This document shows positions 9,259 through 53,459 of a DNA stretch of 62,646 nucleotides, piece by piece (position 1 is the first letter of the stretch; the number at the start of each line of letters is the position of its first letter). The translations under genes and the position numbers were made by a program. The notes under the pieces were generated by a model that saw only the letters and a list, made by a program, of their open reading frames with translations, did not search any database and had not been told where the DNA came from. The DNA comes from a virus: positions 1-62,646 of the IMG/VR virus record IMGVR_UViG_3300035703_000094; one strand, given 5' to 3'.

Positions 9259-9543
9259 ATGGATAACGTGATTGACATTACGAAGCGTTCTAAGAAGATG
9301 AAGGAATGGCAGAAACCCGCAGAGGAACCCAAGAATAAGCAGGTGCAATTAGTCGCAGTGGAAATGGCAACCCTTCTTTACAATCTGGTGCAAAGTAATC
9401 TGCAGCTCATCGAAAAGATTGAGGAGATGAGTGATATGATGGAGCACATGGAGTACCAGATTGACTGTCTACGTAAAGATGTAGACCAGGTCGCTGACCA
9501 CATCACTCGGTCACAGCCTCAAACAAAGTCTCCAAACTCCTAA
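9259..9543 (+). CDS. Coiled-coil small protein
   Basis: A 94-residue protein with a basic N-terminus (MDNVIDITKRSKKMKEW) followed by a long heptad-like helix (MATLLYNLVQSNLQLIEKIEEM onward, about residues 37-85) that suggests a coiled-coil oligomer. Its last 41 bases overlap the end of the convergent 1182-residue ejection-protein gene. No known family is recognised. It could be an assembly or regulatory factor. Confidence 0.65.
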   Translation: MDNVIDITKRSKKMKEWQKPAEEPKNKQVQLVAVEMATLLYNLVQSNLQLIEKIEEMSDMMEHMEYQIDCLRKDVDQVADHITRSQPQTKSPNS

Positions 9544-15525: not shown

Positions 15526-15526
15526 C

Positions 15527-19946: not shown

Positions 19947-20003
19947 GTTTCACCTCGCAGTGGACAGCTTAGCGTTAACTCAAACAAAATGCAAGTGCAT
20001 TCC

Positions 20004-23000
20004 TTACTTACGGGTATCGTCAGCTTCCTTGGTACCCTTTGTACTCATGGCTGCAATACGGAATGTAACTCCCGAGAATTGCAGTGTCTCATAGATGCCG
20101 GCATTATCAATCTTGGTCTGGAACTGAATAGCCTTACTTGTTGGTACACTAAAGCGAATAGTCTCTCCCTTTAACAAGCCCAAGTCAGACAAGCCAGTAC
20201 GTGAATACAGACCCTGTGACTCATACTTGTCGCACTCGTAGTAATCCTCATGCAAGTCAGTAGCCATGGAGACTACCGTGTTTTCCTGACTGATGTTGAG
20301 ATTCTCTTCCTGTGGATTGCGGAAGTGAACGCTAACATGCAGCAATCTCTTACGAATGTTAGGGATACCCAGGTCATTGGGACGCAGGGCTACGGTAGCC
20401 ACAATAGCTGACCCACGGTCAGAGTAGTCCCATTTAGTCGCGGAGTTACGGCGAGTACAGACACGTGCATGCGTAGTTGCAAAGAATTCATCAGCAAAGA
20501 GGTTAGCCCAGCCGGTTGCGACGTGATTATCGTAGCGTGTCCACGAGCCGGGTTGTCCACGTGATTCACGGGTATGTTCATAGACAAGCACATCCGAGTT
20601 ACTGGTAGCGTCCTGCAGTGGAACGCTTAGCTTGTATTGTCGTCCTACGCCAAAATGGTGTCCCTGCGCCAAGTCAAGCTGATTAAGGTCAACTTCCTCG
20701 CGCCAAATGCGGTCTACGAATTGGCCAATCGGTTCGACAGTCAACTGCCTGGTCAGCTTGTAAATGCCCGACTCGTTGGCAAACATGATGCCATCCTTGG
20801 TAGGAGCAATCGAGTAAGGAGCCGTGCAGCCCAATCCTTGTGATTCAATCTTCTGTACTTCCCCAGCGACACGTCCGTCATTACCGACACGCAAGTCAAC
20901 CAGGTAAACAGAGTTTGTCTTGAAGACGACAAGCAAAGATTCGCGTGTAGCCTGACCGAAGGCCGACTCACCGAAGAATGGGATTATGCCAGTAATTTCC
21001 TGACCATCGGCGGCATTCACATCGACAGGCAGTACTCCATCATCGTCGGCCAATGTAATCAGTCGCTGGTCTACTTTATTAAATAGTTCAGGATAGTTTT
21101 GGTAAGAATAGATGACACGGCTTGGGAAGATGGGAGCCTCACTTTCGAGCAGCACCACACCTGCCTTGTACTGCAAACCTGTGTAGATAATCTGCAGAGA
21201 ACTATTAGTTAAGTCCATCTTGAATGCAAAGCTGGCTCCATCTTTTGGCTTACGCAGTCTCAACGTACCCAGGTCAAACTCACCACCTGAATCGGCCATA
21301 ATCCAAGGCTTGAAAGAGGACTGTCCATTGAGATTTGTATTGACTTGACGCATAGCTGAGTTGATTGCTGCAGCCGTACGATTCATGATAGTCAACACGT
21401 TATTGTCATTACCGCCATTTTGCTGAAAACATTTATCAGCATGGGCTGCATTTATGAAAATAGGAACAGTTCCTGCCGGGCTAGTCGAAGAACGAATAAC
21501 AGCAGAATCACAAGAAATATTTGCATTAACTGTACCTTCACCGGGAGCATAGACAGTTAAAGATGTTGTCGTGGGATTACTTGCAGCGCCTTGTGCGGTA
21601 CCAATAATTTGAAACCAGCCTACACCTTTCGTTTCTCCACTACTGCTTACGTCATTGGTGACGTGGTGCAAATAGACCCAATCTCCGACTAATGGTGCGT
21701 AAGGAAATGCGTCAGCACTTTTGAGAGTAATTGATAGTCGGCCTGAAGCAATTGTTGCCACGTCTATCTCGTGATATTCTGAAACATATTCACAAGTTAT
21801 CCGACTAGAAATACCTATAGAAACTTGGTCATCTTCATCGTTATAGACAGTAAAGGTCTTTCCTACAAAATCATCAAAAGTAATGGCTGCACTAGCTTTG
21901 ACAAAGCGAAGACTCATAGCCTGATAGCCGCGCAGATTACCGAGAACAATGCGGTTATTAAGCGAGGTAATATATTTTGCACGTAGCGGTTCACTAAGTG
22001 TTACGGCTGATAATTGGTCTCCCGCAGTAGAAACAATCTCTCGGTCCTGTGGCAAGCTGACTATGGTTGAATTTGATTCCGTATCTACAAAATCAATGTA
22101 TCCTGCGCCCATGGTCTGAGGCATCTCCACTTCACCAACAAGGTAGAAAGGAGGTACCGGAGTACCGCTTGCGACAAGTTGAGTGCGGTAAATTTGGATG
22201 GTTAATTTCTCAAAATCATAGTTATCCCAGACAGGCAGTCCTACCAACCGGAGATGAATACTTGTTCCGTTGTCAATAGTTACTTTATAGTCTTGTACAC
22301 CTGTCGTAGCACCGACGACAAAGTTTCCATTAGCATCGCGTCCGCCAATACGGAAGTAATACCAACAAGTTCCGCCTGTCGCAATTGCACCAGAAGTCTG
22401 TCTCCGTACAAACAACTGAGGATTCCAGCGAGGTACACCTGCTCGATATATGTTAAAGCCGTCAAACTTCTGTATTGGGTCATAGCCGTTGGTCAGATAG
22501 AGGTTGTTCTGACTCATGGTTGAGCGTACCGGAACCTGTGTACCGTACTCGTTTGCATGAAAATGTTCAGTCATTCTTTTGTCTACGGCATTGTAGAGAG
22601 TCAGGTTGGCTGTATCAATCTGAGGTTTCTCGACAGCTTCCCAGCGACCTTCTATTGTAAATGTACCTCGGTTGAATGAGTCATCTGCAATACTTGTAAT
22701 CTCACTTAGTTGCATTTGTGCAAGAATAATACAACCAGTCAATGCTGGCATATTCAGGACACCAGGAGCGGCAAGGGTGAGCGTACTATTGTCAATACCT
22801 ATTTCAGAAACCTCGAACTCTGCAGCATCATAGCCTAAATCGTGTACAAGCACCCTCTGTCCGACTGAGAACTGGCGGGCATTCGAGACACCTGTTAGCG
22901 TCAAAATTTCGTTATTGACAACCGCTGTGACGTTAGATAAGTTTGAACTCAGAACGTACGCCACCTCTACCGGCTCCGCTCTCCCAGCTATAGCTAAGCT

Positions 23001-25073
23001 ATCACCTCTCAGCACAGCCCTATCTAAGCTAAACGACCTATCCTGACCACTAGCTGACCTCGGACCATAGCAATACTTATCTGTCCTGCTCAGATTGATA
23101 AGCTGACCATTCGCTACCTGAATCTCCTCCACCACGCCAGATACATACATGTAAGGCTCAGCTGAACGGTCTGTTCCGATATAGCCAAGTTGTGTTCCTT
23201 GAGGGAAGGACTGTGCAGAGATGAGGTCTCCACGTGTCAGCAAAGGACGGTGGTCAATCGAGAAGCGGTCAGTGAATACTCCTGCTTCACCAGAATCGAG
23301 GCAATTGTAATCTTGTGAAGTGAATCCTGGTTTAATCAGGAAGCTACAACTTTCGCTGGCTGTAGTCTGCAGGCTCCAAATTGGCCATTCGCCATCAAAG
23401 GATTTCAGTTCTGCTCCGCGCAGGGAAAGCAGGTCACCGTAACGTGTGGTATCCGTGAAGGGTACAACAAGTGGTTCTGCTCCTTTGAGAACATTCTGTC
23501 TATCGGGAGTACTGAGTGTAACCCAGTAACCCTGGTCTGTCTCTGACCACTCGATGGACAGGATACGTGCCCAGCCAGATGCTCCACCCTCAAATGTGAT
23601 AGCTCCCCTGGTTCTCACGATGAAAGCTGGGTCTTCTACCAGCTCGTGAAAAAGAGGCGCTAAGAGGGCCGTGGCACGTGCTCTGGCACGCAGGGAGGGG
23701 TAGAGTACTGAAGCCTTGAGGTAAGGGGCTGCATCGGCCTGTTTGGTGGCTTGGAAGAGATTCCAGCCTAAACCAGCCACAACTGTGTTGTAGCCTTCCG
23801 ATTTGTAGGTGTCGATGTGCTGTACCCAGCCACTGCGAGGAGCTTCCTTGGTTGGAAACAATTCTTCTGCTACGAGACCGTAGACAGATAGCTCTGGCTG
23901 TGCATCGAAGGCATTTGCGGTAACTGTATTGATAGGGGTTACTGTTATGGTTGTACTTTTAACTTGAGCATATTCCCAAACAAAGACGATGTTTTGCGAG
24001 ACAGGGAAAGGGTTATCGAAGCTGACAGTAGCTGTCCCTGCAACCGCATCTACGGTTAGTTCGTTTGGCATTACCCGGGCAAGATTTCCGGTAGCTGCAT
24101 CGCGCAGAAAACAATCCAGAAAAAGAAAATCTCCTTCCAGATTTGGTATTACAAATTCGGCATTGGCAACATTTCCGCCTACCGAGTCAATCAATTGTTG
24201 CGCCACAGGGACAGAGTAGAGCATGACTCTGTACACACCTGATTCGCTGAAAGTAACATCTACCTGGCCTGTGTTCTCGTTTACAATTAGTTCAGTCGGG
24301 AGGACTTCCTTGTAGAAGCCTCCACTTACTTCGTAGGTTCTGCACAAGATATTGAAAGTGTTTAGGTTGTGGACAGCCGCCGTAATTGTGACGCTGTTTA
24401 CTGGAACAAGGTCAGTTCCGTATGTCGCACTATAACTTACGCCTGCAATGCTAGGCAATTCCAGGGCGTAGACAAAAGTAGTTATCTCGCCGTCCGTATT
24501 GTCGTAGGGCAGTGTTACATCGTATGTAGTTGTATCAATCTCAATGCCGTTGAGAAATAAGAACTTGTTATTCTTGTTTGTTTGACTTAGGCTTTCTACA
24601 CAAGCGATAAATAGGTTTGATGTATTGTTGCCGTGTTCTGACTGAGGAAAACTTAGACTGCCTGAATGGCTGGCTAAAATAACTTTACGTGGATTGGATT
24701 CGAAGGTCGGGTAGTACTGTGAGGTGTACGTTTCACCGAAGTCATTTATTCCATCGGCTGTACGTCCTACGACGAGGATTGGGCCGGGCGGTACGTTGGA
24801 CAGGTCGATGTCTAGATTGGGATGCTCATTGCTTGTCATCTGGAACACCAGCTTATCGGGTGTACCGTTCTCTTGCTTTACTGCTGCAACGCGGATGGGT
24901 AGATTGCCGAGGTAGTTGCGAAAGCCTGCACGTTTCTCGACGAGACCTTCTGAATTGAAGTCTACGTTGAGGGCATGCTCGACAAAACCTGCTGGGATTG
25001 AATCTTCGGGTGCTTGCTGGTTGATACCGGAGGCAAGGTCTTTTTCAGGTACGGAAGCATAATTCTGTGCCAT
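20004..25073 (-). CDS. Tail tube/hub-like protein with beta-propeller traits, 1689 aa
   Basis: This is the largest gene in the window. The N-terminus (SGINQQAPEDSIPAGFVEHA, then ALNVDFNSEGLVEKRAGF) matches the pattern at the start of T7 gp12-like nozzle and P22 gp10-like stabiliser proteins. The C-terminal half has the typical propeller segments TNSVYLVDLRVGND, GCTAPYSIAPTKDGIMFAN and SGIYKLTR. The long middle is all-beta with repeated Gly/Asn turns and is probably an insertion of receptor-binding or surface domains, because typical homologues are about 500-800 residues. It would form the tail nozzle or stabiliser below the connector. The gene has a leader of about 80 bases without an obvious terminator. 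Confidence 0.7.
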   Translation of the reverse strand: MAQNYASVPEKDLASGINQQAPEDSIPAGFVEHALNVDFNSEGLVEKRAGFRNYLGNLPIRVAAVKQENGTPDKLVFQMTSNEHPNLDIDLSNVPPGPILVVGRTADGINDFGETYTSQYYPTFESNPRKVILASHSGSLSFPQSEHGNNTSNLFIACVESLSQTNKNNKFLFLNGIEIDTTTYDVTLPYDNTDGEITTFVYALELPSIAGVSYSATYGTDLVPVNSVTITAAVHNLNTFNILCRTYEVSGGFYKEVLPTELIVNENTGQVDVTFSESGVYRVMLYSVPVAQQLIDSVGGNVANAEFVIPNLEGDFLFLDCFLRDAATGNLARVMPNELTVDAVAGTATVSFDNPFPVSQNIVFVWEYAQVKSTTITVTPINTVTANAFDAQPELSVYGLVAEELFPTKEAPRSGWVQHIDTYKSEGYNTVVAGLGWNLFQATKQADAAPYLKASVLYPSLRARARATALLAPLFHELVEDPAFIVRTRGAITFEGGASGWARILSIEWSETDQGYWVTLSTPDRQNVLKGAEPLVVPFTDTTRYGDLLSLRGAELKSFDGEWPIWSLQTTASESCSFLIKPGFTSQDYNCLDSGEAGVFTDRFSIDHRPLLTRGDLISAQSFPQGTQLGYIGTDRSAEPYMYVSGVVEEIQVANGQLINLSRTDKYCYGPRSASGQDRSFSLDRAVLRGDSLAIAGRAEPVEVAYVLSSNLSNVTAVVNNEILTLTGVSNARQFSVGQRVLVHDLGYDAAEFEVSEIGIDNSTLTLAAPGVLNMPALTGCIILAQMQLSEITSIADDSFNRGTFTIEGRWEAVEKPQIDTANLTLYNAVDKRMTEHFHANEYGTQVPVRSTMSQNNLYLTNGYDPIQKFDGFNIYRAGVPRWNPQLFVRRQTSGAIATGGTCWYYFRIGGRDANGNFVVGATTGVQDYKVTIDNGTSIHLRLVGLPVWDNYDFEKLTIQIYRTQLVASGTPVPPFYLVGEVEMPQTMGAGYIDFVDTESNSTIVSLPQDREIVSTAGDQLSAVTLSEPLRAKYITSLNNRIVLGNLRGYQAMSLRFVKASAAITFDDFVGKTFTVYNDEDDQVSIGISSRITCEYVSEYHEIDVATIASGRLSITLKSADAFPYAPLVGDWVYLHHVTNDVSSSGETKGVGWFQIIGTAQGAASNPTTTSLTVYAPGEGTVNANISCDSAVIRSSTSPAGTVPIFINAAHADKCFQQNGGNDNNVLTIMNRTAAAINSAMRQVNTNLNGQSSFKPWIMADSGGEFDLGTLRLRKPKDGASFAFKMDLTNSSLQIIYTGLQYKAGVVLLESEAPIFPSRVIYSYQNYPELFNKVDQRLITLADDDGVLPVDVNAADGQEITGIIPFFGESAFGQATRESLLVVFKTNSVYLVDLRVGNDGRVAGEVQKIESQGLGCTAPYSIAPTKDGIMFANESGIYKLTRQLTVEPIGQFVDRIWREEVDLNQLDLAQGHHFGVGRQYKLSVPLQDATSNSDVLVYEHTRESRGQPGSWTRYDNHVATGWANLFADEFFATTHARVCTRRNSATKWDYSDRGSAIVATVALRPNDLGIPNIRKRLLHVSVHFRNPQEENLNISQENTVVSMATDLHEDYYECDKYESQGLYSRTGLSDLGLLKGETIRFSVPTSKAIQFQTKIDNAGIYETLQFSGVTFRIAAMSTKGTKEADDTRK

Positions 25074-29989: not shown

Positions 29990-32623
29990 TTATGTCAATT
30001 GGTACGTGAAGTTAAAAGTATCCGAAGGAATGTTGTTAAAGTTCCAACCAGATGGATAGCCAGCTCCGGCAGCGGTATAATAAGATTGTATTGACGCATT
30101 GTTAAAGTAAAACAAACCAGCACCCAAAACTAATCCACCATTACCAGAATATCTAATAGCCACATTAGCCATGGTAACTCCGGCTCCTATTGCGTATCGC
30201 GTAGGAACTGAACCAAAATCCATTGCTGCTGTTGCATTTGTTATGGTTGCACCAGTATTAATATTTGGAATACGTATATTGGCTAATTTATTTCTACGAG
30301 ATAGCGTTAAATTGTAACTTCCACTAGCATTAGCAAGAGTCCACGTTCTTGCGAGCCAGAACACCTCGCTGACATCTAACACTTTCCAGTTTGCCGCTGT
30401 GCTAGGATTGTCTATTAATGCCATAAGCTCTACAAATCCAGTACCATTAATTTGAGCTTCGGCGATTGACGGAGAAGTAAAGAAACAGTTTGTTTCTGTA
30501 CTGCCAGTCAGCTCAACTTCAATTCGTACTCTGTATCCCGCTTTTACGTTAGTGGGCAGAACTGCTGTAATAGGGGCCGCAGGAGAAGCTACAACAACTC
30601 GATACAAACTGGGGCCGGTAGAGGTTATGTTAAAGTTTCCGGTTGATGTAACATTTGCAAAACCAAGTGGCGATATTGCAGAACCGTCTGGAACAATAGA
30701 ACCTACACTAATACTCAAGGGCAGCGTTGCTCCCACTGCCGGGGCATTCAGGGCGTAGTTAATGTATGCCGACGTAAATCCTGCCACGTTTGGCAATGTG
30801 ACTTGAATCATCCCTGCGGCAGTTATGCTCACACTGAAGCCTGTCGGAGGTGTATCGCCGGTTGTCTGGTAGGACAGATTGAAGTCTGTCGCGTTGCCAT
30901 TCTTTGCGAACTGTGCCTGCACATAGAAGCGTGTATTGACGGTGCCGTCGATGAAGACAGTACCAGCCAATGAACCAGCTTCGTAGTTGGCTGCATCTTG
31001 TACAGAGGTGGTTGTATTATTAGCAAGCGAGATAGTTGTGCGGGCATTGGCTGCACCTACGACTGTCCCGCGCATATTGTAGAAGAACATCTTGGCTGGG
31101 CTAGAGGAGAAGATGATACCGAGTGGCTTGCTGACTTGCCCGACTACGCTAGGCTCCGTCGCGGTCATCTTGCCTGCTTCACTAGCCGAGAGGAAGACTG
31201 CCTCGCCTACGCCGGGAACTGAGCCGCCCTCGAAGTCATCTGCCGAGATAACCTCGATTGCGCCGCCTGTAGCCAGCTCGAATGTATCTGCGTCAATGAC
31301 GTTGGCCAGGATACCTACAACCTCAGCTGTATTGGCTGCGGTAGCTATTGCAGAGGTATAGGTAGTGCCGTTGAGATAGAGGACCTTGCCTTTGTCTGCA
31401 GCATTTGTAAAGCCGTGAGGTGCGGGTGTGGTGACCTGAGTTACTGTACCGCCTGCTCCACCGCCTGTACCACCTACCACTGTCCATTTGTTGACGGTGC
31501 CAGTGCGGTAGACGAGGAAGAGGGCAGCCTTATCTGCCAGACTGACTGGGCCACCTGTGCCTGTAATAATTTGACGACTTGCGTTAGAGCCTGATTCATT
31601 GTCAATAAGAACAGAGCCGCCAGAGCGGTTCAGGATGACCAGATGTTGGCCTTCACTATTCTGCACATTTATTTGGTTGACAATGTACGAACCAGCCACA
31701 CTTGCAGTCAGGGTGATAAGACCCGTGCGATTCGTAGCAAAGACTTCGTTTGTTCCAGGAGACAAGTTAGTCAGAGCGGAATCTGCAACCTGGGTCACGA
31801 GACCATCGAAGGTTTTCAATTTGACGTTACTGTTAGCTCCATCCTGAGTCAGGATTGCCGTGTTATCCGGGATGCTGTTACCGCTGACGATTACGCCTGT
31901 ACCGTCTCTACGGATAACCTTGTTGGCATCTGCAAGGACTGTGGAAAGTTTGCCGATGGAGACCGATGTGTCGGCCAACTTGCTACCTGCAATGTTTGCA
32001 GTAGCAGAAACATCTGCGTCAACGATGAGAGAGGTAGAGAGTGCACCTGCAACGCTGTTGTGGACAACGCCTGCAGTATTGAGGCCAGTTACGGTTGCAT
32101 TGGTTACGCTCAAGTCACCTGTGGTAGTTATGGTCTGTGCACCGAAGTTAGGACTAACCTTGGTTCCTGCGATAGCTGCCGTTGCACTGACATCGCCGTC
32201 CACGATAGTTCCATCAGCAATCATTGCCGAAGTAATTGTACCGCTGTCACTACGTGTGACCAAGATACCGCTTGTATCTGGCAGCGTGAATGTGCGTCCG
32301 TTTGTGAGGCTCTCTGTGGAGATGGTGGCTGCGCTACCATTCTCGCCTGTAACCAACAACTTATTGGCAGCCGATGCTACATTTACTTTGCCAGCTGCAG
32401 GAGTTGCAGCCGTGCCGTCAATAACGGGCGAAGTGAGTGTTTTCTTTTCGAGTGTCTGTGTCTGCTTGTCGAGGACGAGTGTCTGGGCAGCATCAGCTCC
32501 CATGTCAGGGATATTAATAGTTTTATCTGAAGCGCCGGACTGTGTTGCCGGCTCTACCGTAATCTCTTTTCCGTCAAAGAATTTGATTCTAGTCAGGCGT
32601 TCCCAAAGACCAAATACTTTCAT
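29990..32623 (-). CDS. Tail fibre protein, 877 aa
   Basis: A long repetitive fibre protein. The N-terminal part has LEKKTLTSPVIDGTAATPAA, and further repeats of the type SATANIAGSKLADTS and ATAAIAGTKVSPNFG, which are typical of fibre shafts (TxxxIxxSKL repeats). The C-terminal 300 residues are beta-rich with Gly, Asn, Ser and Thr and end in a probable receptor-binding domain. It starts three bases after the end of the preceding, even longer fibre gene, with which it shares shaft motifs, suggesting an old duplication. It lacks a chaperone domain of its own. Confidence 0.8.
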   Translation of the reverse strand: MKVFGLWERLTRIKFFDGKEITVEPATQSGASDKTINIPDMGADAAQTLVLDKQTQTLEKKTLTSPVIDGTAATPAAGKVNVASAANKLLVTGENGSAATISTESLTNGRTFTLPDTSGILVTRSDSGTITSAMIADGTIVDGDVSATAAIAGTKVSPNFGAQTITTTGDLSVTNATVTGLNTAGVVHNSVAGALSTSLIVDADVSATANIAGSKLADTSVSIGKLSTVLADANKVIRRDGTGVIVSGNSIPDNTAILTQDGANSNVKLKTFDGLVTQVADSALTNLSPGTNEVFATNRTGLITLTASVAGSYIVNQINVQNSEGQHLVILNRSGGSVLIDNESGSNASRQIITGTGGPVSLADKAALFLVYRTGTVNKWTVVGGTGGGAGGTVTQVTTPAPHGFTNAADKGKVLYLNGTTYTSAIATAANTAEVVGILANVIDADTFELATGGAIEVISADDFEGGSVPGVGEAVFLSASEAGKMTATEPSVVGQVSKPLGIIFSSSPAKMFFYNMRGTVVGAANARTTISLANNTTTSVQDAANYEAGSLAGTVFIDGTVNTRFYVQAQFAKNGNATDFNLSYQTTGDTPPTGFSVSITAAGMIQVTLPNVAGFTSAYINYALNAPAVGATLPLSISVGSIVPDGSAISPLGFANVTSTGNFNITSTGPSLYRVVVASPAAPITAVLPTNVKAGYRVRIEVELTGSTETNCFFTSPSIAEAQINGTGFVELMALIDNPSTAANWKVLDVSEVFWLARTWTLANASGSYNLTLSRRNKLANIRIPNINTGATITNATAAMDFGSVPTRYAIGAGVTMANVAIRYSGNGGLVLGAGLFYFNNASIQSYYTAAGAGYPSGWNFNNIPSDTFNFTYQLT

Positions 32624-32625
32624 TA

Positions 32626-35289
32626 TTAGATTCTCCTTATTAGAACTTTCCAGCCAGAACCAGTGGGTACCTCAGACGCAGTCAATGTCACTGTGTTTAC
32701 ATCAGTACGCACGACGGAGTCTACCAAAATATCCTCAAAGGTGTCCAGTGAATAGATTTGAATGAGTACATCACGGCTTGCTAGATTATGTGTGATAACT
32801 TTACTTGTGCCATCTGCTGTTGCCCAGGTCGCGGTGAAGTTGGCACCGGACAGATTGGCGATAGCCTGCAGGCTAACCTTCTTGAGGTTATCCGAGTCGG
32901 AAGCATCTGAAATAAGTAGATAATCTTCTGCTGCAGGGCTGACTTGTGTTTTGCTTGTGATAGCCTCTTTCTTGAGCGTGAGGGTCAAGGCATTGGAGGC
33001 ATCATCGTAGGTAGCTTGCAGGTCATTCGAGGAGCCTACGAGGTTAGCTCCTACGACATCCTGTACAGCCTCGGTAAAGTCAGTAATCTGTGCAGCTGGG
33101 ATAGCAATGCTTTGTTCTGCTGCAGAGGTCAGGCGACCCTTATTGTCTACAGCGATTGTAACAGTTTTGGAAGCACTACCGTAGCTGCCGTTAGTAACGC
33201 CGGTAACTTTAAGAGCAAAGCTAAGCTGGTTACCAGTATCGTCATAAGTTTTAGCAATCTCAGTAGAGTCGATAAGTAGTGCATTGATGGCATCCTGAGC
33301 CAGCTCATCGCTGAAGAATTTGTTTGTTGAGCCTTCAGTAATATTGTCTGTATTGATGGTTGCTTGACGTAGGCTGAATGTAATCGAATCAGGGCCTGAG
33401 CCGTGGGCGATGGTGACACCAGAGGTGACGCCATCATTGACGGCAATCATTCCCTTGACCTTGGTATTGACGCGAGCATCCGTGTAGTAGAGACGTGCGC
33501 CTTCAGGCAAGTCTGTGGTACTGAATGCACCGATATTCAAGGTCGGAGTCAGTGTACGGTTGACTGAATTGTAACTCCAAGTCAATCCTGTGGCTGCTTG
33601 AATAGTCGCATTCACTTGGTCCGAAATCATCTGGTTACGGTTAGCTGAACTATTCAAAGGAGATGGCAGGTCTGTTTCTTGCAGCTGACGGAAGTCCGGC
33701 GTACCTGTAGAACCGATAGGAGAAGCAAAGACCTTGTTGGCTGTCTGATTAGCCAGGACTATGTCAAATTGTCCTGTAGCTGTAATGAATGGAATAGAGT
33801 CGCCAGGCTCGACAGGGATTACTGCACCAGAGCCGTCGCGGGTTGTCACACTAAAGATGTTTGGTGCGGTCAAGCCTACCTTGGATACAGAACCACCTGC
33901 CTGTGAAACAGACCAGCTTGTATTGCCCAGACCGTCCGTGACAAGCACATAGTTCTGACCACCGGCGTTGGATGGAAACTTGAAGTTGAGGTCCTGTGTC
34001 TGGCTCTGGATTCCGAGTGTAGTCTTGAAGGTTTGTCCAATCTTGAAGCCTGATTCAGATTCGGCAAACTGAATACCAAACTTGGCATCCACCTTCTCGC
34101 CGGAAAGCCTGTCACCGGATTGCGAAGACCAGTCAGTATTCTTGAGACTGCCGGTCAATTGCAGCTTTCCGTAGACGATGTCGGCATTGGATGCAATATC
34201 TGCATTGACAATGCTATTGCTCATGCTGAGTGCAGAGTAGGGAATGGCGGAGAAGGTGTTCTCCTGACCGCTCATGCTCTTGTTCTGTAGTGTCTGAGAG
34301 AGGGTACGCCGCTCCTCGTCTGAGCGGTTGTCTACATTGCCCAGGCCCACATCTGCCTTGGTAATCCCGGTAGGTGTAGTGATGTGTGGAGATTGCAGAG
34401 TTTTGTTGGTCAATACCTGTGCATCCGAGACGCCTACGATTGCACTGGCTGTGCCATGTGCTGCCGTGGCTCCCGTGTGTGCATCGAAGTCTGCAGTCTT
34501 TGCACGTGTGTCAATGTCCTGCTGAAGTTCCGAAAGGGCTGACTGCAAGTCTGTGGCAGAAATGTTTGCAATGGCAGCTACGGCAATCTTTGTTGCCGCG
34601 ATTGCTGCGCTGCTGGATATATCTGCGTTATTTACTTGCCCTGCAAGATTGAGTTTAGAGTAGGCAATGGCTGCCGTAGAAGCAATGGATGCGTTGACGA
34701 TGCCGGTAATCTCATTGACTCCCGGGGTAGCATCTATTGTCTTATTGGTCAGCGTCTCTTCGCCAGCAAGTGTAGCTACTGTACCTGTGACTGGCAACGT
34801 AATTTCTGTAGCTGCGGTTGTGTTAAACTTTGTACTAAATCCGCCTGCAAGTTCCAGGTCTTGTGCAAGGACAAGTGCGCGGTTACCGTTTTGAATATCG
34901 AGCAAAAGTTCACGGTTGGCTGCAGTATCTGCTGCACCTTGTTTAGTTGAGTCATAGCGGATGGTAAGATATTTGCGGGTAGCAAGTGGTACTAGGTAGT
35001 CAGGCAAACGGAGTGAACCATTTAGTTCAAAGACACTTGCATAGACTTTGAATTCTGCTACGGGTGTAGCTTCTGAGCCGACGTAAAGGCTGCTGGTTCC
35101 ATTACCGCCTGCCGAGGGGTCGCCAGGAAGAAGACGGATGTCTGTTTTACTACGGATATTAACTGCTTCTGAATTGTCAACTTGATATACGCCGCCGAGA
35201 CGGTCCAAAATTTCCAAGTTGGCTTTGGCCTCTGTACTCAGGCCCGAGGACAGGAAGAGGCGTAGATTTCGGGTACGACTGGTGGCCAC
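32626..35289 (-). CDS. Tail fibre protein, first in the block, 887 aa
   Basis: A large shaft-like fibre protein. GTG at 35289 is proposed as the start because GGAGGACTCACAA precedes it, and the upstream codons would run into a strong terminator. The N-terminal region may attach to the tail (SRTRNLRLFLSSGLSTEA). The middle contains repeats of the type STAAIAYSKLNLAGQVNNAD, ITKADVGLGNVDNRSDEERR and NTFSAIPYSALSMSNS, which are common in fibre shafts. The C-terminus is a beta-sandwich ending in SEVPTGSGWKVLIRRI. It lies directly after the capsid terminator and so needs its own promoter or readthrough. Confidence 0.8.
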   Translation of the reverse strand: MATSRTRNLRLFLSSGLSTEAKANLEILDRLGGVYQVDNSEAVNIRSKTDIRLLPGDPSAGGNGTSSLYVGSEATPVAEFKVYASVFELNGSLRLPDYLVPLATRKYLTIRYDSTKQGAADTAANRELLLDIQNGNRALVLAQDLELAGGFSTKFNTTAATEITLPVTGTVATLAGEETLTNKTIDATPGVNEITGIVNASIASTAAIAYSKLNLAGQVNNADISSSAAIAATKIAVAAIANISATDLQSALSELQQDIDTRAKTADFDAHTGATAAHGTASAIVGVSDAQVLTNKTLQSPHITTPTGITKADVGLGNVDNRSDEERRTLSQTLQNKSMSGQENTFSAIPYSALSMSNSIVNADIASNADIVYGKLQLTGSLKNTDWSSQSGDRLSGEKVDAKFGIQFAESESGFKIGQTFKTTLGIQSQTQDLNFKFPSNAGGQNYVLVTDGLGNTSWSVSQAGGSVSKVGLTAPNIFSVTTRDGSGAVIPVEPGDSIPFITATGQFDIVLANQTANKVFASPIGSTGTPDFRQLQETDLPSPLNSSANRNQMISDQVNATIQAATGLTWSYNSVNRTLTPTLNIGAFSTTDLPEGARLYYTDARVNTKVKGMIAVNDGVTSGVTIAHGSGPDSITFSLRQATINTDNITEGSTNKFFSDELAQDAINALLIDSTEIAKTYDDTGNQLSFALKVTGVTNGSYGSASKTVTIAVDNKGRLTSAAEQSIAIPAAQITDFTEAVQDVVGANLVGSSNDLQATYDDASNALTLTLKKEAITSKTQVSPAAEDYLLISDASDSDNLKKVSLQAIANLSGANFTATWATADGTSKVITHNLASRDVLIQIYSLDTFEDILVDSVVRTDVNTVTLTASEVPTGSGWKVLIRRI

Positions 35290-35306
35290 TTGTGAGTCCT
35301 CCACTT

Positions 35307-35322
35307 CAGGGCGACAGCCCTG
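35307..35322. promoter_or_regulatory. Inverted repeat before the first fibre gene
   Basis: CAGGGC and GCCCTG are separated by four bases. On the minus-strand message the hairpin would sit about 18-30 bases before the GTG of the fibre gene, just upstream of the GGAGG ribosome-binding site. There is no T-run, so it is not a terminator. It could stabilise the message or act as an RNA-processing site after readthrough of the terminator beyond the capsid gene. Confidence 0.45.
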
Positions 35323-35350
35323 CGGTCTGTCAGGTCTTGGGAAGTGTAGC

Positions 35351-35395
35351 AAAAGAAAAGGCCCTACGCAAGTGCCAGGCACGGACGTAGGACCT
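35351..35395 (-). terminator. Rho-independent terminator after the capsid gene
   Basis: On the minus strand an eleven-pair stem (AAGGTCCTACG with CGTAGGGCCTT, one G-T pair) holds an inner hairpin (GTGCCTGGCAC), followed by TTTTCTTTT. It begins about 20 bases after the capsid stop. It separates highly expressed head genes from the fibre block. Confidence 0.9.
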
Positions 35396-48184: not shown

Positions 48185-48429
48185 TGTTCTCTCCGTGCGC
48201 GTCTCTTTTTGGCAGGCGCAAATTGTACCCGCTCATCTAGTGCTCTTACTTCATGTGCATCAAAAATGACAAGAATGCAAGTATTTTTATCATAGACATG
48301 CACTGCCGTATTATCCTCTTCGGTAATGATGTCTGTTCCTTCTACCGTGTAGATGTCGCCTTTTTGATTAGTAACTTGCCAACGCATCTTCTTTGGAGTT
48401 TTTGGGGGAGGCAAAGTAAGGAGTTTCAT
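48181..48429 (-). CDS. Hypothetical protein, 82 aa
   Basis: A small beta-barrel-like protein with MRWQVTNQKGDIYTVEGTDI and CILVIFDAHEVRALDE, ending in a very basic tail (KKRRARREQ). It has four-base overlaps with the terminase small subunit gene and the next gene. The charged tail could bind DNA. No family is recognised. Confidence 0.65.
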   Translation of the reverse strand: MKLLTLPPPKTPKKMRWQVTNQKGDIYTVEGTDIITEEDNTAVHVYDKNTCILVIFDAHEVRALDERVQFAPAKKRRARREQ

Positions 48430-48938
48430 TCATCTTCCCCTTTTGGTAAAAGGACTGGAGCTTGTTTTTCGATGTATGCACGTAGTTGTTCGGGAGTCAT
48501 GCTGTTAATACTAGCATCAGCGACCTTCTCCGAGCGTCTCTTATTGGCCAAATCAGCCAAAATTTTAATCATAGTAACTCTGGCAGACTGTGCTTTCGGG
48601 TCTTCGTTCTGAAGAATCTGCTCAGCCGCATCCAAAGCTAAGTCAAAGAGATATTCGATGCGTTGAAGATGCTCGTGACGGTTGGAAAACCAGGTACGAA
48701 AGGCTGTGTGTTCCCACCAATTAGGCAAAGAAGGACACTGCAAGGTCTTACCTAGCTCGTATGGGTCAATGCCTTCTGTGTCATCCGCAATAGCTTGCTC
48801 AGAGACGAGCGCCCAATAGCGTGTTTTAGCCTGACGCTGTGCGGGATTGGGTCTGAATGCCTGTCCTACCAGGATATTCTGGGCTTCTTTAGAGCTAATA
48901 CTAGCTTTGGCCTTACGTTTTGGTTCTTCGGCTGTCAT
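48426..48938 (-). CDS. terS: Terminase small subunit (putative)
   Basis: A 170-residue helical protein with a basic, disordered N-terminus (EEPKRKAKASISSKEA), then a central helical domain with PSLPNWWEHTAFRTWFSNRH and EHLQRIEYLFDLALDAAEQI. It begins the late operon and directly follows the control region, where the small subunit is commonly encoded. In this role it binds the packaging site and recruits the large subunit. The start at 48938 was chosen because GAGG precedes it at a good distance; an ATG 12 bases upstream lacks one. No DNA-binding motif is clear enough for certainty. Confidence 0.6.
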   Translation of the reverse strand: MTAEEPKRKAKASISSKEAQNILVGQAFRPNPAQRQAKTRYWALVSEQAIADDTEGIDPYELGKTLQCPSLPNWWEHTAFRTWFSNRHEHLQRIEYLFDLALDAAEQILQNEDPKAQSARVTMIKILADLANKRRSEKVADASINSMTPEQLRAYIEKQAPVLLPKGEDE

Positions 48939-49007
48939 GGAAAACCTCATATTCTTCTAAAAAGAGAGTTTATCAAACTATTTAACAATGACAAGCCCAA
49001 AATGGAC

Positions 49008-49036
49008 TTGACAGAAAGTGGTGGCTCAGCTATACA
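49008..49036 (+). promoter_or_regulatory. Near-consensus sigma70 promoter
   Basis: TTGACA (49008-49013), a 17-base spacer, then TATACA (49031-49036). The -35 matches perfectly and the -10 in five of six bases. An inverted repeat ATACC-tctgtca-GGTAT (49036-49052) begins at the end of the -10 box and covers the expected start of transcription near 49043. The repeat is a possible operator. The promoter faces away from the terminase gene and toward the early arm. Confidence 0.83.
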
Positions 49037-49042
49037 TACCTC

Positions 49043-49109
49043 TGTCAGGTATCAGCAGCTTGACACCCTCCTGTAGCCCGATGGTTTATTCTGAACTATC
49101 GGGTTTTTC
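49043..49109 (+). ncRNA. Predicted small RNA of about 67 nt
   Basis: The promoter at 49008-49036 starts a transcript that meets a strong terminator only about 65 bases later. No reading frame with a ribosome-binding site fits in between. The RNA would contain TGTCA (49043-49047) pairing with TGACA (49061-49065) and end in the terminator hairpin. Possible roles are a regulatory RNA, an antitermination site, or a leader that prevents readthrough into the opposite-strand genes. Confidence 0.6.
49077..49109 (+). terminator. Rho-independent terminator downstream of the small-RNA promoter
   Basis: CCCGATGGTT and AACTATCGGG form a ten-pair stem with one G-T pair and the loop TATTCTG, followed by TTTTTCTT. 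It is about 65 bases from the predicted start of transcription. Confidence 0.88.
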
Positions 49110-49267
49110 TTGTTATTCAGGCCCAAACTACGACTACTGCGGCCCGATTCCTTCAACGGCAGCACTTATCGGTCCCTCAGCCCGTCTGGACGACAGGACA
49201 GCCCGACTGAGTCCCGAAGTGAACGACGGTGAACGTAGAGACGAGGGAGGGCGGGGGATAACAGGTG

Positions 49268-49720
49268 CTAATCAGCCCAGCCCTGATGCTTAGCTATGGC
49301 CTTAACTAGCCGGAGAAACTCAAGATGTGAGGTTTTTTGCCTGAGCTGCCTGCATTTACCACAGACAGTGACTAGAGTGGTAGGGCCGGGACCTTCTCCC
49401 AGGCCATTATTGAAGAGTAGACCGCAATATTCGCATGGCTCCTTAATCTTAGTACGTAATTCTTCCTCGGATGCCAGGTCTGTGAGACGATGCCTAATTG
49501 GTAACCTATTCCCGCCGAATTGAAGTGCTCGCAGATAGGGACATTTCTTCTTATCTCCGCAAGTTATATGACCTTTCTGAGTCAGCAACTTCGACTTCTT
49601 GAGCACAATCTTACCGCAATCGCACTGACATTGCCAATCTCTTACATGCCCACGCTTGACTAATCCAATAACGATAAGGTGCCCGAATCTTTGTCCTGTA
49701 ATATCAACAAGTTTAGCCAT
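49268..49720 (-). CDS. HNH-like zinc protein, possibly a decayed homing endonuclease
   Basis: A 150-residue protein. The N-terminus MAKLVDITGQRFGHLIVIGL, then WQCQCDCGKIVLKKSKLLTQ, is the zinc-binding domain commonly fused to phage HNH homing endonucleases. The C-terminal part has CEYC and later VTVCGKCRQLRQKTSHLEFL, with the CxxC-CxxC ligands of HNH domains, but the usual His/Asp/Asn catalytic residues before the second CxxC are not evident. It may be inactive as a nuclease. The start at 49720 follows GGGAACTTGATGTT. It lies as a free-standing unit beside the terminase small subunit gene, a common place for such genes. Confidence 0.7.
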   Translation of the reverse strand: MAKLVDITGQRFGHLIVIGLVKRGHVRDWQCQCDCGKIVLKKSKLLTQKGHITCGDKKKCPYLRALQFGGNRLPIRHRLTDLASEEELRTKIKEPCEYCGLLFNNGLGEGPGPTTLVTVCGKCRQLRQKTSHLEFLRLVKAIAKHQGWAD

Positions 49721-49818
49721 AACATCAAGTTCCCGAGTAAAAACACAGAGTTCTAGGGGGCAGTCTACAGTAAAACCCGCCGAGTGTAAAGGGGGAACTT
49801 CCGATTGACGGTCGCGCC

Positions 49819-49848
49819 AAAACCCACTTACCGTGCTTGGCAAGTGGG
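49819..49848 (-). terminator. Probable terminator after the 46-aa gene
   Basis: On the minus strand CCCACTTGCC and GGTAAGTGGG form a ten-pair stem (one G-T) with loop AAGCAC, followed by TTTT. The T-run is short, so it may be weak or partial. It would end the transcript of the small gene at 49880-50020 before the HNH-like gene. Confidence 0.55.
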
Positions 49849-49879
49849 CCGGATGATTGGGGTTTTTTGTTTGGGTGAC

Positions 49880-50020
49880 TCACGCGGCTTGCACCCGAGC
49901 CTTCAGGGTTAGGGGTCTTACTTCGAAAGACTCCCAATCGTATTGGTCAAGAGTTGCTTCGACTGCATTAGTGTAGATGATAACAAGGCTTCCATCAGTA
50001 AGAGTAATTCTGAGTTCCAT
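49880..50020 (-). CDS. Small protein, 46 aa, first gene of the late arm
   Basis: A short protein starting MELRITLTDGSLVIIYTNAV, then LDQYDWESFEVRPL, ending basic. The ATG at 50020 follows AGGAGAATCAAG, a much better ribosome-binding site than any for the upstream in-frame ATGs. It is beta-rich and unrecognised. A terminator-like hairpin follows 30 bases after its stop. Being the first minus-strand gene beside the control region, it could be a regulator, but nothing in the sequence proves it. Confidence 0.6.
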   Translation of the reverse strand: MELRITLTDGSLVIIYTNAVEATLDQYDWESFEVRPLTLKARVQAA

Positions 50021-50120
50021 CTTGATTCTCCTGTAAGAGCCGGTTGCTTGGCTCACCCTACTCATCGACACTTTGCCGATTTGCTTTAGTTCCCAATCAT
50101 TTCAACAAGTTAGCCAATAC

Positions 50121-50154
50121 TACACATTGTATCTATAGAGATGTGTAACGCACA
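50121..50154 (-). promoter_or_regulatory. Inverted repeat with overlapping minus-strand promoter-like sequence
   Basis: TACACAT (50121-50127) and ATGTGTA (50141-50147) form a seven-base inverted repeat with a 13-base spacer. On the minus strand TACAAT lies in this repeat, with TTGTGC about 18 bases upstream, a weak promoter for the 46-residue gene. The repeat would overlap the -10 box and could be a repressor site. Confidence 0.4.
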
Positions 50155-50164
50155 ATTTGGCGCG

Positions 50165-50226
50165 GCGGGGGATGGGCGTCGGGGGAACGTCGTGCAGCGG
50201 GGGATGGGCGCAGCGGGGGATGGGTG
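50165..50226. repeat. G-rich tandem repeats in the control region
   Basis: GCGGGGGATGGGCG occurs at 50165-50178 and 50197-50210, and GCGGGGGATGGGTG at 50213-50226. A degenerate copy (TCGGGGGAACG) at 50179-50189 lies between them. The nine-base core GCGGGGGAT also occurs at 49251-49259, in the same orientation, near the terminase small subunit gene. Candidate roles are terminase recognition, a replication origin, or a regulator site. The G runs could also form a quadruplex. Confidence 0.75.
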
Positions 50227-50339
50227 GCTGCAGCTGCGGAGAGGTGACGCGAGTGCTACTCGTGAGGCTTCAACTTGCCGAGATTGCTGGCTTTTCCAAC
50301 TTTCCGTTAAAGTATTTTTTGCCGTTTGCCGTAAAGAAG

Positions 50340-50656
50340 GTGTCGGGTCGCTCAGCTTGACTCCTTGTGTCGGACGATACACGGTCAACGGGCTTCCCTA
50401 CCGCTCCCCGTGCTGCGGCACTACGGAGACGCGCCTTGCGGAGCATGTAGTCCTCGGACAGTGCCTACCGTGTACGAATCGGCTAACTACCGACGGCGAG
50501 CGAAAGCAGTTAGGAATCACTGCGTGTATCCGAGGATACACAGACGTGTGAACGAAGCTGTGATTAGCAACAAGAACTCTGGAGACCGCCTCGCGTGTTC
50601 GTGTCGAGATGATACCAAACACAAGAGAGACCGCCCAGAGGTGCAGGATGCACGAA
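50340..50656 (+). other. Gene-free structured leader region
   Basis: The stretch 50021-50719 has no convincing gene. Its second half is dense in inverted repeats that would form hairpins in a plus-strand RNA: CTAACT/AGTTAG (50483-50488 with 50508-50513), the near-perfect GTGTATCC-GA-GGATACAC (50524-50541) and GTGCA-gga-TGCAC (50641-50653), which stands four bases before the hammerhead ribozyme. The density suggests a long structured leader or non-coding RNA. The 50524-50541 repeat could also be a protein-binding operator. No family was recognised. Confidence 0.55.
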
Positions 50657-50711
50657 CCCTATACACGTCTGCTTCGACGTGCTGACGAGTCCCAGAAAGG
50701 ACGAAATAGGG
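50657..50711 (+). ncRNA. Type III hammerhead ribozyme
   Basis: A complete self-cleaving RNA motif. Stem III is CCCUAU (50657-50662) with AUAGGG (50706-50711). Next come A50663 as the cleavage-site residue and stem I, CACGUC (50664-50669) with GACGUG (50676-50681), loop UGCUUC. Then the core CUGACGA (50682-50688) and stem II, GUCC (50689-50692) with GGAC (50699-50702), loop CAGAAA. The core GAA (50703-50705) follows, and A50706 pairs with U50662. Every conserved core base of the hammerhead is present. Cleavage is expected after A50663. Both ends are in stem III, which defines type III. The 3' strand of stem III merges with the GGGAG ribosome-binding site of the next gene. Confidence 0.93.
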
Positions 50712-50719
50712 AGTATCTT

Positions 50720-50833
50720 ATGTTTTTCTTCACACCCTTGGAATTATTTATAATTCTCGTTGTTGGCTTTGCCTTTCTCACGCTGTCCGACATTGTAATC
50801 AATGTCGTGAAGGATGTCCTCTCAAAAGAGTGA
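50720..50833 (+). CDS. Very small membrane protein, 37 aa, behind the ribozyme
   Basis: The protein starts MFFFTPLELFIILVVGFAFL, a single membrane helix, and ends with DIVINVVKDVLSKE. ATG at 50720 has GGGAG at 50709-50713, and this Shine-Dalgarno sequence includes the last bases of the hammerhead ribozyme. It is the first plus-strand gene of the early arm. A longer in-frame start at 50609 would translate through the ribozyme and is rejected. Possible roles are a holin-like or host-membrane-acting peptide. Confidence 0.75.
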   Translation: MFFFTPLELFIILVVGFAFLTLSDIVINVVKDVLSKE

Positions 50834-50841
50834 GGTGACCT

Positions 50842-51525
50842 ATGCCTACGTTGCTTGCACAAAACAGCAAGATTGCCAAGAGCGCAACTGCTGAATACGT
50901 TGTATTCAACTTCGGGATACCTGCATGGAAGTCCAAGACTGGCATGATTACATGCCCTGCGGCTGGCATCTGCGGAAAACAAGGCGGATGCTACGCATTG
51001 CAGGGGCCGTATCGGTTCAGCAATGTGGCCAGCGTGTACGAGTGGAGATTGACGCAAGCCGAGACAGAAACATTCCCGATTCTGATGCAATCAGAATTAG
51101 ACGAGGCAAAACGCAAGGCTACCAAACGTGGCCGCAAGGTTGTCATCCGCATACACGATAGCGGTGACTTCTATTCGGTTCCTTACTTGCGGAAATGGTT
51201 GGCAATTATTGTAGCCAACGAAGATGTTTACTTCTATGCCTACACGAAACAAGTTCGCTTGTTCAGTAAGTTACTGGACAAGTTACCTAGTAACTTCCGT
51301 GTCATCTTCTCCGAGGGTGGCATCTTCGATGACGAGATTGACACAGCTACTCAATTCCACAGTCGAGTCTTCCCTTCTAGGGAAGCATTGCTTGCCGCTG
51401 GCTATGCTGACGCAAGCGAGAACGATTTGGTGGCAGGCATGGGCGACAATATCCGCATCGGCCTTATCTATCACGGTGCTGACAGCAAGCAATGGACAAC
51501 TGACGAACAGGAGAAAGTGTCATGA
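50842..51525 (+). CDS. GP88-family protein
   Basis: A 227-residue protein resembling the mycobacteriophage gene 88 family. It has KTGMITCPAAGICGKQGGCY near the N-terminus (C38, C44, C50), then a charged central region with VVIRIHDSGDFYSVPYLRKW and VYFYAYTKQVRLF. The three clustered cysteines suggest a metal or Fe-S site, and the later parts have the strand/helix alternation of a barrel. The biochemical function of the family is not established. The start follows GAGGTGACCT, and its stop overlaps the next start. Confidence 0.8.
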   Translation: MPTLLAQNSKIAKSATAEYVVFNFGIPAWKSKTGMITCPAAGICGKQGGCYALQGPYRFSNVASVYEWRLTQAETETFPILMQSELDEAKRKATKRGRKVVIRIHDSGDFYSVPYLRKWLAIIVANEDVYFYAYTKQVRLFSKLLDKLPSNFRVIFSEGGIFDDEIDTATQFHSRVFPSREALLAAGYADASENDLVAGMGDNIRIGLIYHGADSKQWTTDEQEKVS

Positions 51526-51695
51526 CAATAGCACGTTACAGAGAATTGCTGGGCCATCCATACTATAAGTATGAGGTTGAATTGATTGTGCTTTCCAATG
51601 GAAAGCGCATCAAGATTGCTGCAATAAATTGCAGAGACGATGACGAGTTGGCTCAAGCCACAGAGTGGGTTGAGTTTGTACTGAAGGGAGAATGA
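51522..51695 (+). CDS. Hypothetical protein, 57 aa
   Basis: A short reading frame starting MTIARYRELLGHPYYKYEVE, then LIVLSNGKRIKIAAINCRDD, ending LKGE. It overlaps the GP88 stop by four bases (ATGA), the usual coupling in this arm. The composition is that of a folded alpha/beta domain. Not recognised. Confidence 0.65.
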   Translation: MTIARYRELLGHPYYKYEVELIVLSNGKRIKIAAINCRDDDELAQATEWVEFVLKGE

Positions 51696-51697
51696 AC

Positions 51698-51892
51698 ATG
51701 GAAAACACGATGGCTGCAACGTACAAGGCATTCCTTGAGGAATGCACCACGAAGGAAGAGTGGAACACGCTCATTGACCTTGCTTTGCAAGACTGTTACT
51801 CGGCAGGCAATTCATTCTACGCTGACCTGTGGCTGTACTTCCACGATGGCAGCGACTGCGATGTGAAATACAACGTGTGCGAGGAGGTATAA
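51698..51892 (+). CDS. Hypothetical acidic protein, 64 aa
   Basis: The protein starts MENTMAATYKAFLEECTTKE and ends CDVKYNVCEEV. The ATG at 51698 is preferred to one at 51692 because AAGGGAG lies directly before the latter, too close to serve it. The order ribosome-binding site, ATGAAC, ATG recurs before several genes of this arm. The protein is acidic and helical, with scattered Cys, and is not recognised. Confidence 0.65.
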   Translation: MENTMAATYKAFLEECTTKEEWNTLIDLALQDCYSAGNSFYADLWLYFHDGSDCDVKYNVCEEV

Positions 51893-51893
51893 A

Positions 51894-52253
51894 ATGCGAG
51901 TGTTTGTCTACCGCAATCTTCGGAAAAAGTGCTTTAGCATCAAGGCTTTGGAGGGGCCGAACAAGGGACGCGTCATTGCGAGGCGTCACTTCGTTGACCT
52001 GACCGACGTGACCTTCAAGGTCAGCGAGGCAGGCAGGCAGCGTGTGCTCCGGACTGGACAGAAGAACGTACACGCTGGGCTGGTAGGTCAGTGGAATGAC
52101 AGGCTACTACCGCTCTCACCTGTGGCAGAGGAGAAGGAAGTCAAGTATAACCCGCGAGAATCGGGAGAGTTTCGGCTGATGGACAACACGCCAATCAAGG
52201 TGGCCAAGTGTGCGAAATTGTTTGGCGGTAAATACATTTTGGTGGAGGTGTAA
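51894..52253 (+). CDS. Hypothetical protein, 119 aa
   Basis: A basic protein rich in beta strands: MRVFVYRNLRKKCFSIKALE, then GRVIARRHFVDLTDVTFKVS, later KVAKCAKLFGGKYILVEV. Several Arg and Lys lie on the strands, which suggests nucleic-acid binding. No family was recognised. It follows GAGGAGGTATAAA, a strong ribosome-binding site. Confidence 0.7.
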   Translation: MRVFVYRNLRKKCFSIKALEGPNKGRVIARRHFVDLTDVTFKVSEAGRQRVLRTGQKNVHAGLVGQWNDRLLPLSPVAEEKEVKYNPRESGEFRLMDNTPIKVAKCAKLFGGKYILVEV

Positions 52254-52254
52254 C

Positions 52255-52611
52255 ATGGTGAAATTAGATGGTTACAAGAGGGTTTCAATTAACGAAGTAG
52301 ATGGGTCGAGCCTGAAGACACACATCGAAGCGACCTACGGAGAGCTAGTCACCCTACTGGGTGAACCGGAGGAGTGCGATGGATACAAGGTATCCGGTGA
52401 GTGGGCAGTCAAAGACAAGGACGGCAACGTGTGTACAGTCTACGACTGGAAGCGGACACGCCTCTATGACTTCGCTCTACCGAGTGTCGAAGTCTTTCGT
52501 GCAATGAAGTATCCTACCACATTCAACATAGGAGGACACAGTGGCTACGCTGCGGAGAACTTCCGTCACCAACTAGAGCTGCAATTACTGGCACTTAGAA
52601 ATAAACGCTAA
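52255..52611 (+). CDS. Hypothetical protein, 118 aa
   Basis: The protein starts MVKLDGYKRVSINEVDGSSL. The middle has a pattern seen in many small phage proteins that act on a ligand or partner, LVTLLGEPEECDGYKVSGEW, then WAVKDKDGNVCTVYDWKRTR. The C-terminus is helical. ATG at 52255 follows GGTGGAGGTG. It ends before a 68-base gap. The function is unknown. Confidence 0.7.
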   Translation: MVKLDGYKRVSINEVDGSSLKTHIEATYGELVTLLGEPEECDGYKVSGEWAVKDKDGNVCTVYDWKRTRLYDFALPSVEVFRAMKYPTTFNIGGHSGYAAENFRHQLELQLLALRNKR

Positions 52612-52623
52612 ACTTATTACAAC

Positions 52624-52636
52624 TTGTTCCGAACAA
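52624..52636. promoter_or_regulatory. Short palindrome TTGTTC-C-GAACAA
   Basis: A 13-base inverted repeat lies in the 68-base gap before the DUF932 gene. A second small repeat, GGCC-AATTCC-GGCC, follows (52645-52658). Either could be a regulator site or a message hairpin. A good -10/-35 pair is not apparent beside them, so the assignment is weak. Confidence 0.35.
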
Positions 52637-52679
52637 TAATTCATGGCCAATTCCGGCCTTACTTCACAGGAGATTCCAC

Positions 52680-53459
52680 ATGACGAACATTATCACACTC
52701 GCAAAGAACGCTACCGCTGCTGCAAACTGCGTGTCCGAGAACTACAAGTTCCTGAGTACACAGCAAGCACACGAGGTACTGGCTGACTTCGGCTTCATGG
52801 AGTCACGCTACCGTCAGAGCAAGGGAGCAGGCGAGAGACAAGGATTCCAGAAACATATCAGCATCTTCGAGAGAGACACAGACAAGGACGAAGATGGACG
52901 CTTCAACCTGCTCATGCTCAACTCACACGATGGAACATCCTCGCTCCGGCTTGAGGCTGGATACTTCAGGATTCTCTGTGAGAATCAGCTTGGCTCTGGC
53001 GATGTGGGTGTGCGAATCATTCACCGTGGCGAGGCACTGACTCGCTTCGCTGACTCGATTCCATTGGTCATCCATCAGATGCAAATGTTCAAGGAAGTCA
53101 AGTCCTTGCTCCGTGACAAAGTGCTCAACACAGATGCTCAGATGGAGCTTGCCCGCCTTGCACTGCAACTGCGCGAGGTTAAGTTCGAGACACTCGACGC
53201 TTACCAGACCGAGCGTAACCTGCTCAACATGCTGGTGCGTAGACGCTACGAGGATACAGGCAACAACGCATGGAAGGTATTCAATGCAGTGCAGGAGAAC
53301 GTAGTCAAGGGCGGTGTGCGCCTGTACCAGAATGCAGGTACCGTGGAAGCACCGAAGGATGTGCTCCGCAAGATTCGGCCACTGACTTCGGCAGAGCGGC
53401 TGCTCGACGTGAACAATGCACTGACCGAGTGTGCAATCCAACTGGCCCGCGCTGCATAA
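52680..53459 (+). CDS. DUF932-family phage/plasmid protein
   Basis: A 259-residue protein whose core is NLLMLNSHDGTSSLRLEAGY and FRILCENQL, the signature of DUF932 proteins, widespread on plasmids and in phages. The biochemical role of the family is not established. The C-terminal half is helical and charged (RDKVLNTDAQMELARLALQL and following). It starts at 52680 after CAGGAGATTCCAC. It is the largest gene of the early small-gene cluster. Confidence 0.82.
   Translation: MTNIITLAKNATAAANCVSENYKFLSTQQAHEVLADFGFMESRYRQSKGAGERQGFQKHISIFERDTDKDEDGRFNLLMLNSHDGTSSLRLEAGYFRILCENQLGSGDVGVRIIHRGEALTRFADSIPLVIHQMQMFKEVKSLLRDKVLNTDAQMELARLALQLREVKFETLDAYQTERNLLNMLVRRRYEDTGNNAWKVFNAVQENVVKGGVRLYQNAGTVEAPKDVLRKIRPLTSAERLLDVNNALTECAIQLARAA

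Follow-up and report, generated by a model that had tools for sequence, protein, structure and literature searches.

The put RNAs of phage HK022 are structured RNAs beside an early promoter, and antitermination RNAs of the put type carry RNA polymerase past terminators with no need of a phage protein. RNAs of the GOLLD and ROOL families often lie near phage tRNA genes. PMC12286853 describes them as large and structured, phage-borne and of unknown function. Hammerhead ribozymes are also found in phages: Perreault et al. 2011 (PMC3088659) places them in phage and prophage DNA near genes, often flanking genes in groups, proposes that they process long phage transcripts, reports a variant hammerhead in PaP3 and leaves the role of hammerheads in phage genomes open. 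A search of open-access papers, PMC8040213 among those consulted, turned up no account of a hammerhead-released phage RNA.

The DNA analysed here (the window) is a virus record from IMG/VR, 62,646 b long. Its two ends share a perfect 90-b repeat, so the map is probably complete and circular. The rightward arm runs from 50.7 kb over the record ends to 9.2 kb and encodes a GP88 family protein, DUF932, Clp protease, DNA polymerase and helicase; the leftward arm runs from 50.0 to 9.5 kb and encodes ribonucleotide reductase, terminase, portal and tail fibre. The arms diverge at a gap of 699 nt (50021-50719), bordered by the ATG of a leftward ORF at 50020 and that of a rightward ORF at 50720. The right part of this gap, about 50307-50656, appears to encode a structured non-coding RNA of roughly 340 bases, which would head the arm carrying DNA polymerase and helicase. 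Two related contigs, L122 and L123, carry the same RNA; together with the window they are called family 1. The features are as follows.

49880-50020, minus strand: leftward 46-aa ORF bordering the gap, 77% identical in L122
50021-50300, no strand: intergenic DNA that separates the leftward arm from the rightward RNA where they diverge, a candidate promoter/operator region
50165, 50197 and 50213 (50165-50226), plus strand: three G-rich repeats GCGGGGGATGGGYG, candidate protein-binding sites
50307-50317, plus strand: TTAAAGTATTT, candidate promoter element at the 5′ border of the RNA
50338-50497, plus strand: left domain of the RNA, with a long helix, hairpins and a UCGG/CCGA hairpin
50352-50355 with 50389-50392, plus strand: long helix of the left domain, with a UUGAC/GUCAA stem above
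50410-50421 and 50450-50459, plus strand: hairpins of the left domain
50498-50574, plus strand: fast-evolving hairpin insert, shorter in L122
50524-50541, plus strand: 18-nt inverted repeat GTGTATCC-GA-GGATACAC within the insert
50575-50653, plus strand: right domain of the RNA, with helix 50577-50582/50635-50640
50589-50598/50619-50629 and 50601-50605/50611-50615, plus strand: inner helices of the right domain
50641-50653, plus strand: 3′ hairpin GTGCAGGATGCAC in the right domain
50657-50711, plus strand: predicted type III hammerhead ribozyme (Rfam RF00008, 24 bits; our own detector)
50708-50713, plus strand: Shine-Dalgarno-like AGGGAG, its AGGG within the 3′ strand of hammerhead stem III
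50720-50833, plus strand: first rightward ORF, 37 aa, hydrophobic, matching nothing in Pfam or PHROG; similar small ORFs in L122 (38 aa) and L123 (30 aa)
50842-51525, plus strand: GP88-family gene (PF17338, 123 bits), 95% identical in L122 and 33% over 111 aa in L123

No Rfam family other than the hammerhead matches. An earlier note on this DNA had suggested a search with GOLLD and ROOL models; neither matches in the window at gathering score, nor up to E 5 over 49800-51000, and the same holds for the OLE covariance model. The RNA resembles GOLLD and ROOL in being structured and phage-borne, but is about half the length given for them in PMC12286853, and the window has no tRNA genes. With the HK022 put RNAs it shares a folded structure and a place beside a presumed early promoter, but it is far larger and, unlike them, would be cut off by a predicted ribozyme. 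Compared with the phage hammerheads described in PMC3088659, a single hammerhead here ends a conserved structured RNA.

The earlier note had described some 640 gene-free, highly structured bases. The gap is real, but only its right-hand ~350 nt, starting near 50307-50338 and not at 50021, can be called highly structured. ORFs 50141-50551 and 50365-50685 inside it are chance ORFs, not conserved in relatives. That genes otherwise overlap everywhere was checked only roughly: stretches free of arm-strand ORFs (≥35 aa) measured at most 120 b, a count into which chance ORFs enter too.

Relatives came from several searches. GP88 led to L002/L122 (protein 95% identical) and a 17-base piece of the RNA to L123. 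A profile of protein 48426-48950, labelled TerS by genomic place only because no family matched it, yielded four further contigs, L126-L129; of these only L129 covers the hammerhead, L127 breaks off within the leader, and L126 and L128 stop before it. The same six contigs and no more were returned by a wider protein profile, L122 and L123 and no others by a 20-mer search, and L127 and L129 alone by a pattern from their own leader. Genome contigs gave no match with a 21-mer or with the protein profile, and blastn with the leader found L001 and L002 only among 121 loci. GenBank phages contained no DNA relative of the window; their terminase matches were all below 60% identity. Two patterns were discarded as relative finders: the GAGACCGCC pair was too common (at least 119 stretches), and TTGACTCCTT-ACACGGTC led to five further contigs, none similar to the leader.

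Conservation is far higher in the RNA core than in the flanking DNA. In 40-nt bins across the three family-1 phages, the fraction of invariant columns is 0.12-0.33 over 50080-50279, 0.60 at 50280 and 0.78-0.85 over 50320-50479; it is 0.15 at 50520, in the hairpin insert, and 0.50-0.65 from 50560 up to the hammerhead. The small ORF scores 0.20-0.38, and bin 50040, beside the leftward gene, 0.55. No reading frame is open across the core in all three phages, which rules out a coding reading. That the letters of the left domain are so strongly conserved suggests a binding partner.

Structure is visible chiefly by comparison. Folding energy of the single sequence is unremarkable (z -1.41, 9/100 shuffles equally stable), and the description 'highly structured' rests on comparison with relatives, not on energy alone. 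Alifold scored the three family-1 sequences, hammerhead included, at -111.6 against -76.6 ± 5.3 in column shuffles (z -6.6, 0/200); only three related sequences carry the RNA, so that this and the following shuffle counts are not probabilities. Removing the hammerhead gave z -4.5 (0/200) and the right half z -4.2 (0/200). The left half alone was weak (z -1.63, 9/200), hardly above an antisense coding control in TerS (z -1.51, 11/200; sense control z -0.38, 67/200).

Covariation in related genomes, which had been named beforehand as the test of a functional RNA, is strong in the right domain and can be seen in the left one too. In the right domain plus hammerhead, 15 of the 41 pairs are changed on both sides, a number reached in 0/500 shuffles, and 121/122 cells are paired against 31-49% in slid controls, a comparison that favours the predicted structures because these came from the very alignments counted. 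The left domain has 7/52 pairs changed on both sides (1/500 shuffles) and 154/156 cells paired; few of its pairs can vary, because its letters are so highly conserved. A count over hand-picked helices (63 pairs, 19 changed on both sides) is not relied on, its arms having been chosen. The individual elements pointed out at the start are all present in the letters. The 18-base inverted repeat is present, and L123 has GTCACATCC-GA-GGGTGTGAC in its place, with different letters and the pairing retained; the perfect small hairpin at 50641-50653 is likewise present. The letters of CTAACT (50483-50488) and AGTTAG (50508-50513) are there too, but their pairing is kept in neither L122 nor L123.

These paired changes, spread over many helices, argue against conservation of the stretch as DNA (an origin or promoter array) rather than as RNA. 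The repeats and the divergent layout would suit such an element, but the repeats lie outside the conserved core, and we regard this reading as extremely improbable. The G-rich repeats had been remarked on before and do occur: GCGGGGGATGGGYG has three matches in the gap against 0.38 expected, and 0/100 shuffles reach 3. L122 has different repeats, GCAGCGCAGGCTCGG, at this position. The left part of the gap has no RNA-structure signal (alifold on the 250 nt upstream of the RNA, z +0.22, 117/200 shuffles).

A border motif, TTAAAG-TTT, stands at the 5′ border of the RNA in 5/5 leaders (window, L122, L123, L127 and L129). Its pattern has 2 sites on both strands of the whole 62,646-b window, a rarity that is only a hint because the pattern was built from these same leaders; the other site is at 7504, plus strand, just inside the start of ORF 7492-7986. 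A sigma-70 scan found no plus-strand promoter within 48900-52000. In L127 and L129, long alternating CA/CG runs (e.g. GCACGCACGCACG) lie just upstream of the leader, ahead of the motif.

At the other border, the hammerhead is a perfect one and has the invariant type III core CUGANGA ... GAA with A15.1-U16.1 and H17, and stems I, II and III of 6, 4 and 6 pairs. The predicted cut lies between A50663 and C50664, after ACCCTATA and before CACGTC. Core, three stems, NUH cut site and open stem III are those of RF00008; the Rfam scores in the four phages (24 in the window, then 27.0, 34.3 and 38.3 bits) are all below the gathering score of 48.5, which is a curator's cut-off and not a structural feature. 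Within family 1 the three stems are kept by paired changes (5/6 pairs of stem I changed on both sides), and in L129 the letters of every stem are different. The ribozyme is present in 4/4 contigs spanning the site (window, L122, L123 and L129), at the 3′ border of the RNA in all three family-1 phages and kept in the fourth. Our detector gave 11 hits in 137 sequences (1,421,626 b, repeated contigs counted), every one of them at this site, in 4 contigs. With one core mismatch allowed it found one hammerhead only in the window, where Rfam at gathering score found no other ribozyme family. A circular RNA is therefore unlikely, there being no second ribozyme on the other side. No hammerhead was found by Rfam in the GP88-bearing loci L144, L145 and L147 (L146 was left out). 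PaP3, reported to hold a variant, gave none by our detector, nor by Rfam up to E 1, so both methods can miss variants.

In 3/4 phages a Shine-Dalgarno-like sequence overlaps stem III on its 3′ strand, and the hammerhead could act as a translation switch, stem III hiding the Shine-Dalgarno sequence until the cut. Predicted openness on cutting rises from 0.02 to 0.45 in L122, but changes little in the window (0.18 to 0.27) and L123 (0.14 to 0.23) and not at all in L129 (0.19 to 0.19), where the site is outside stem III. Such a switch would also leave the conserved upstream RNA unexplained, and we consider it very unlikely.

A hammerhead that releases the RNA is the reading that best suits the anatomy and conservation of the locus. 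Conservation, predicted structure, position and hammerhead core come from comparison of the relatives; transcription, cleavage, early timing and a role in trans we infer. As a whole, the following account is in our judgement rather probable. A promoter near 50307 would start the rightward, presumably early, transcript, whose first ~340 nt would fold into the conserved two-domain non-coding RNA. The hammerhead at 50657-50711 would cut at A50663/C50664 and free it, leaving a 2′,3′-cyclic phosphate a few bases past the 3′ hairpin. The remaining mRNA, with the small ORF and GP88, would begin with a 5′-OH and a structured 5′ end. Once released, the RNA would act independently in early infection, probably as a binding partner of a protein or of the host transcription or translation machinery. 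The note's central proposal, a functional RNA whose 3′ end the hammerhead would make, is supported by the conserved, non-coding core with the ribozyme at its 3′ border, except that the leftmost ~280 nt of the gap fall outside the RNA.

The main rival is a role in cis: the RNA would affect the transcript that contains it or the polymerase making that transcript, by antitermination or sensing as put RNAs or riboswitches do, and the hammerhead would only trim the 5′ end of the mRNA. All four phages have the leader immediately at the start of the rightward arm, and three keep the order RNA, hammerhead, small ORF, GP88; both points favour a cis role. Against this, the hammerhead would sever the leader from what it controls, and no cis-regulator in Rfam matches the plus strand of 49800-51000. 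We judge a cis role rather unlikely.

A model of the left domain (R1), run against 23 sources, matched only the three family-1 phages (188-194 bits), with no copy in the sister leaders of L127 and L129; a second model (R2) found only the hammerhead in the sister leaders (20 bits) and, in L070, a single weak match that looks like chance (9.5 bits, E 3). The sister leaders are 69% identical to each other over the ~125 nt common to both and unlike that of family 1; their structure signal is weaker (z -2.65, 5/300). They keep the hammerhead (L129) and the border motif (L127 and L129), and the RNA between is unlike that of family 1. Because this leader is unrelated and shorter, not every phage of the group needs the family-1 RNA, a point against the account given above. 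In L129 the first ORF after the hammerhead, cut by the contig end, starts MSLYTISLNG and differs from that of family 1. It is possible that the RNA represents a new type of regulatory RNA in phages. More tentatively, and at somewhat below even chances, it may stand for a class of hammerhead-released, early, trans-acting phage RNAs in which the ribozyme is a fixed maker of 3′ ends and the upstream RNA is exchanged between lineages. The position of the hammerhead would give phage hammerheads a concrete job, making the 3′ end of an RNA; if true, this would be an RNA class absent from Rfam 15 and a new use for a known ribozyme.

Elsewhere in the genome, the rightward arm opens with GP88, an L5 gp82-like protein and DUF932 (50842-53459). 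Mycobacterium phages account for 241 of 250 tblastn records of GP88 relatives, and an actinobacterium is a possible host. Six large leftward proteins (824-1689 aa; 9506-25073 and 29993-35382) match nothing in Pfam; five of them have no PHROGs match either, in a scan that left out the 1689-aa protein (20004-25073). Between the TerS-like and HNH-like genes, at 49090-49260, lies a G-rich element, GCCCGACTGAGTCCCGAAG...GAGGGAGGGCGG, that may be a packaging site or another RNA; the corresponding position in L127, L128 and L129 has look-alike letters.
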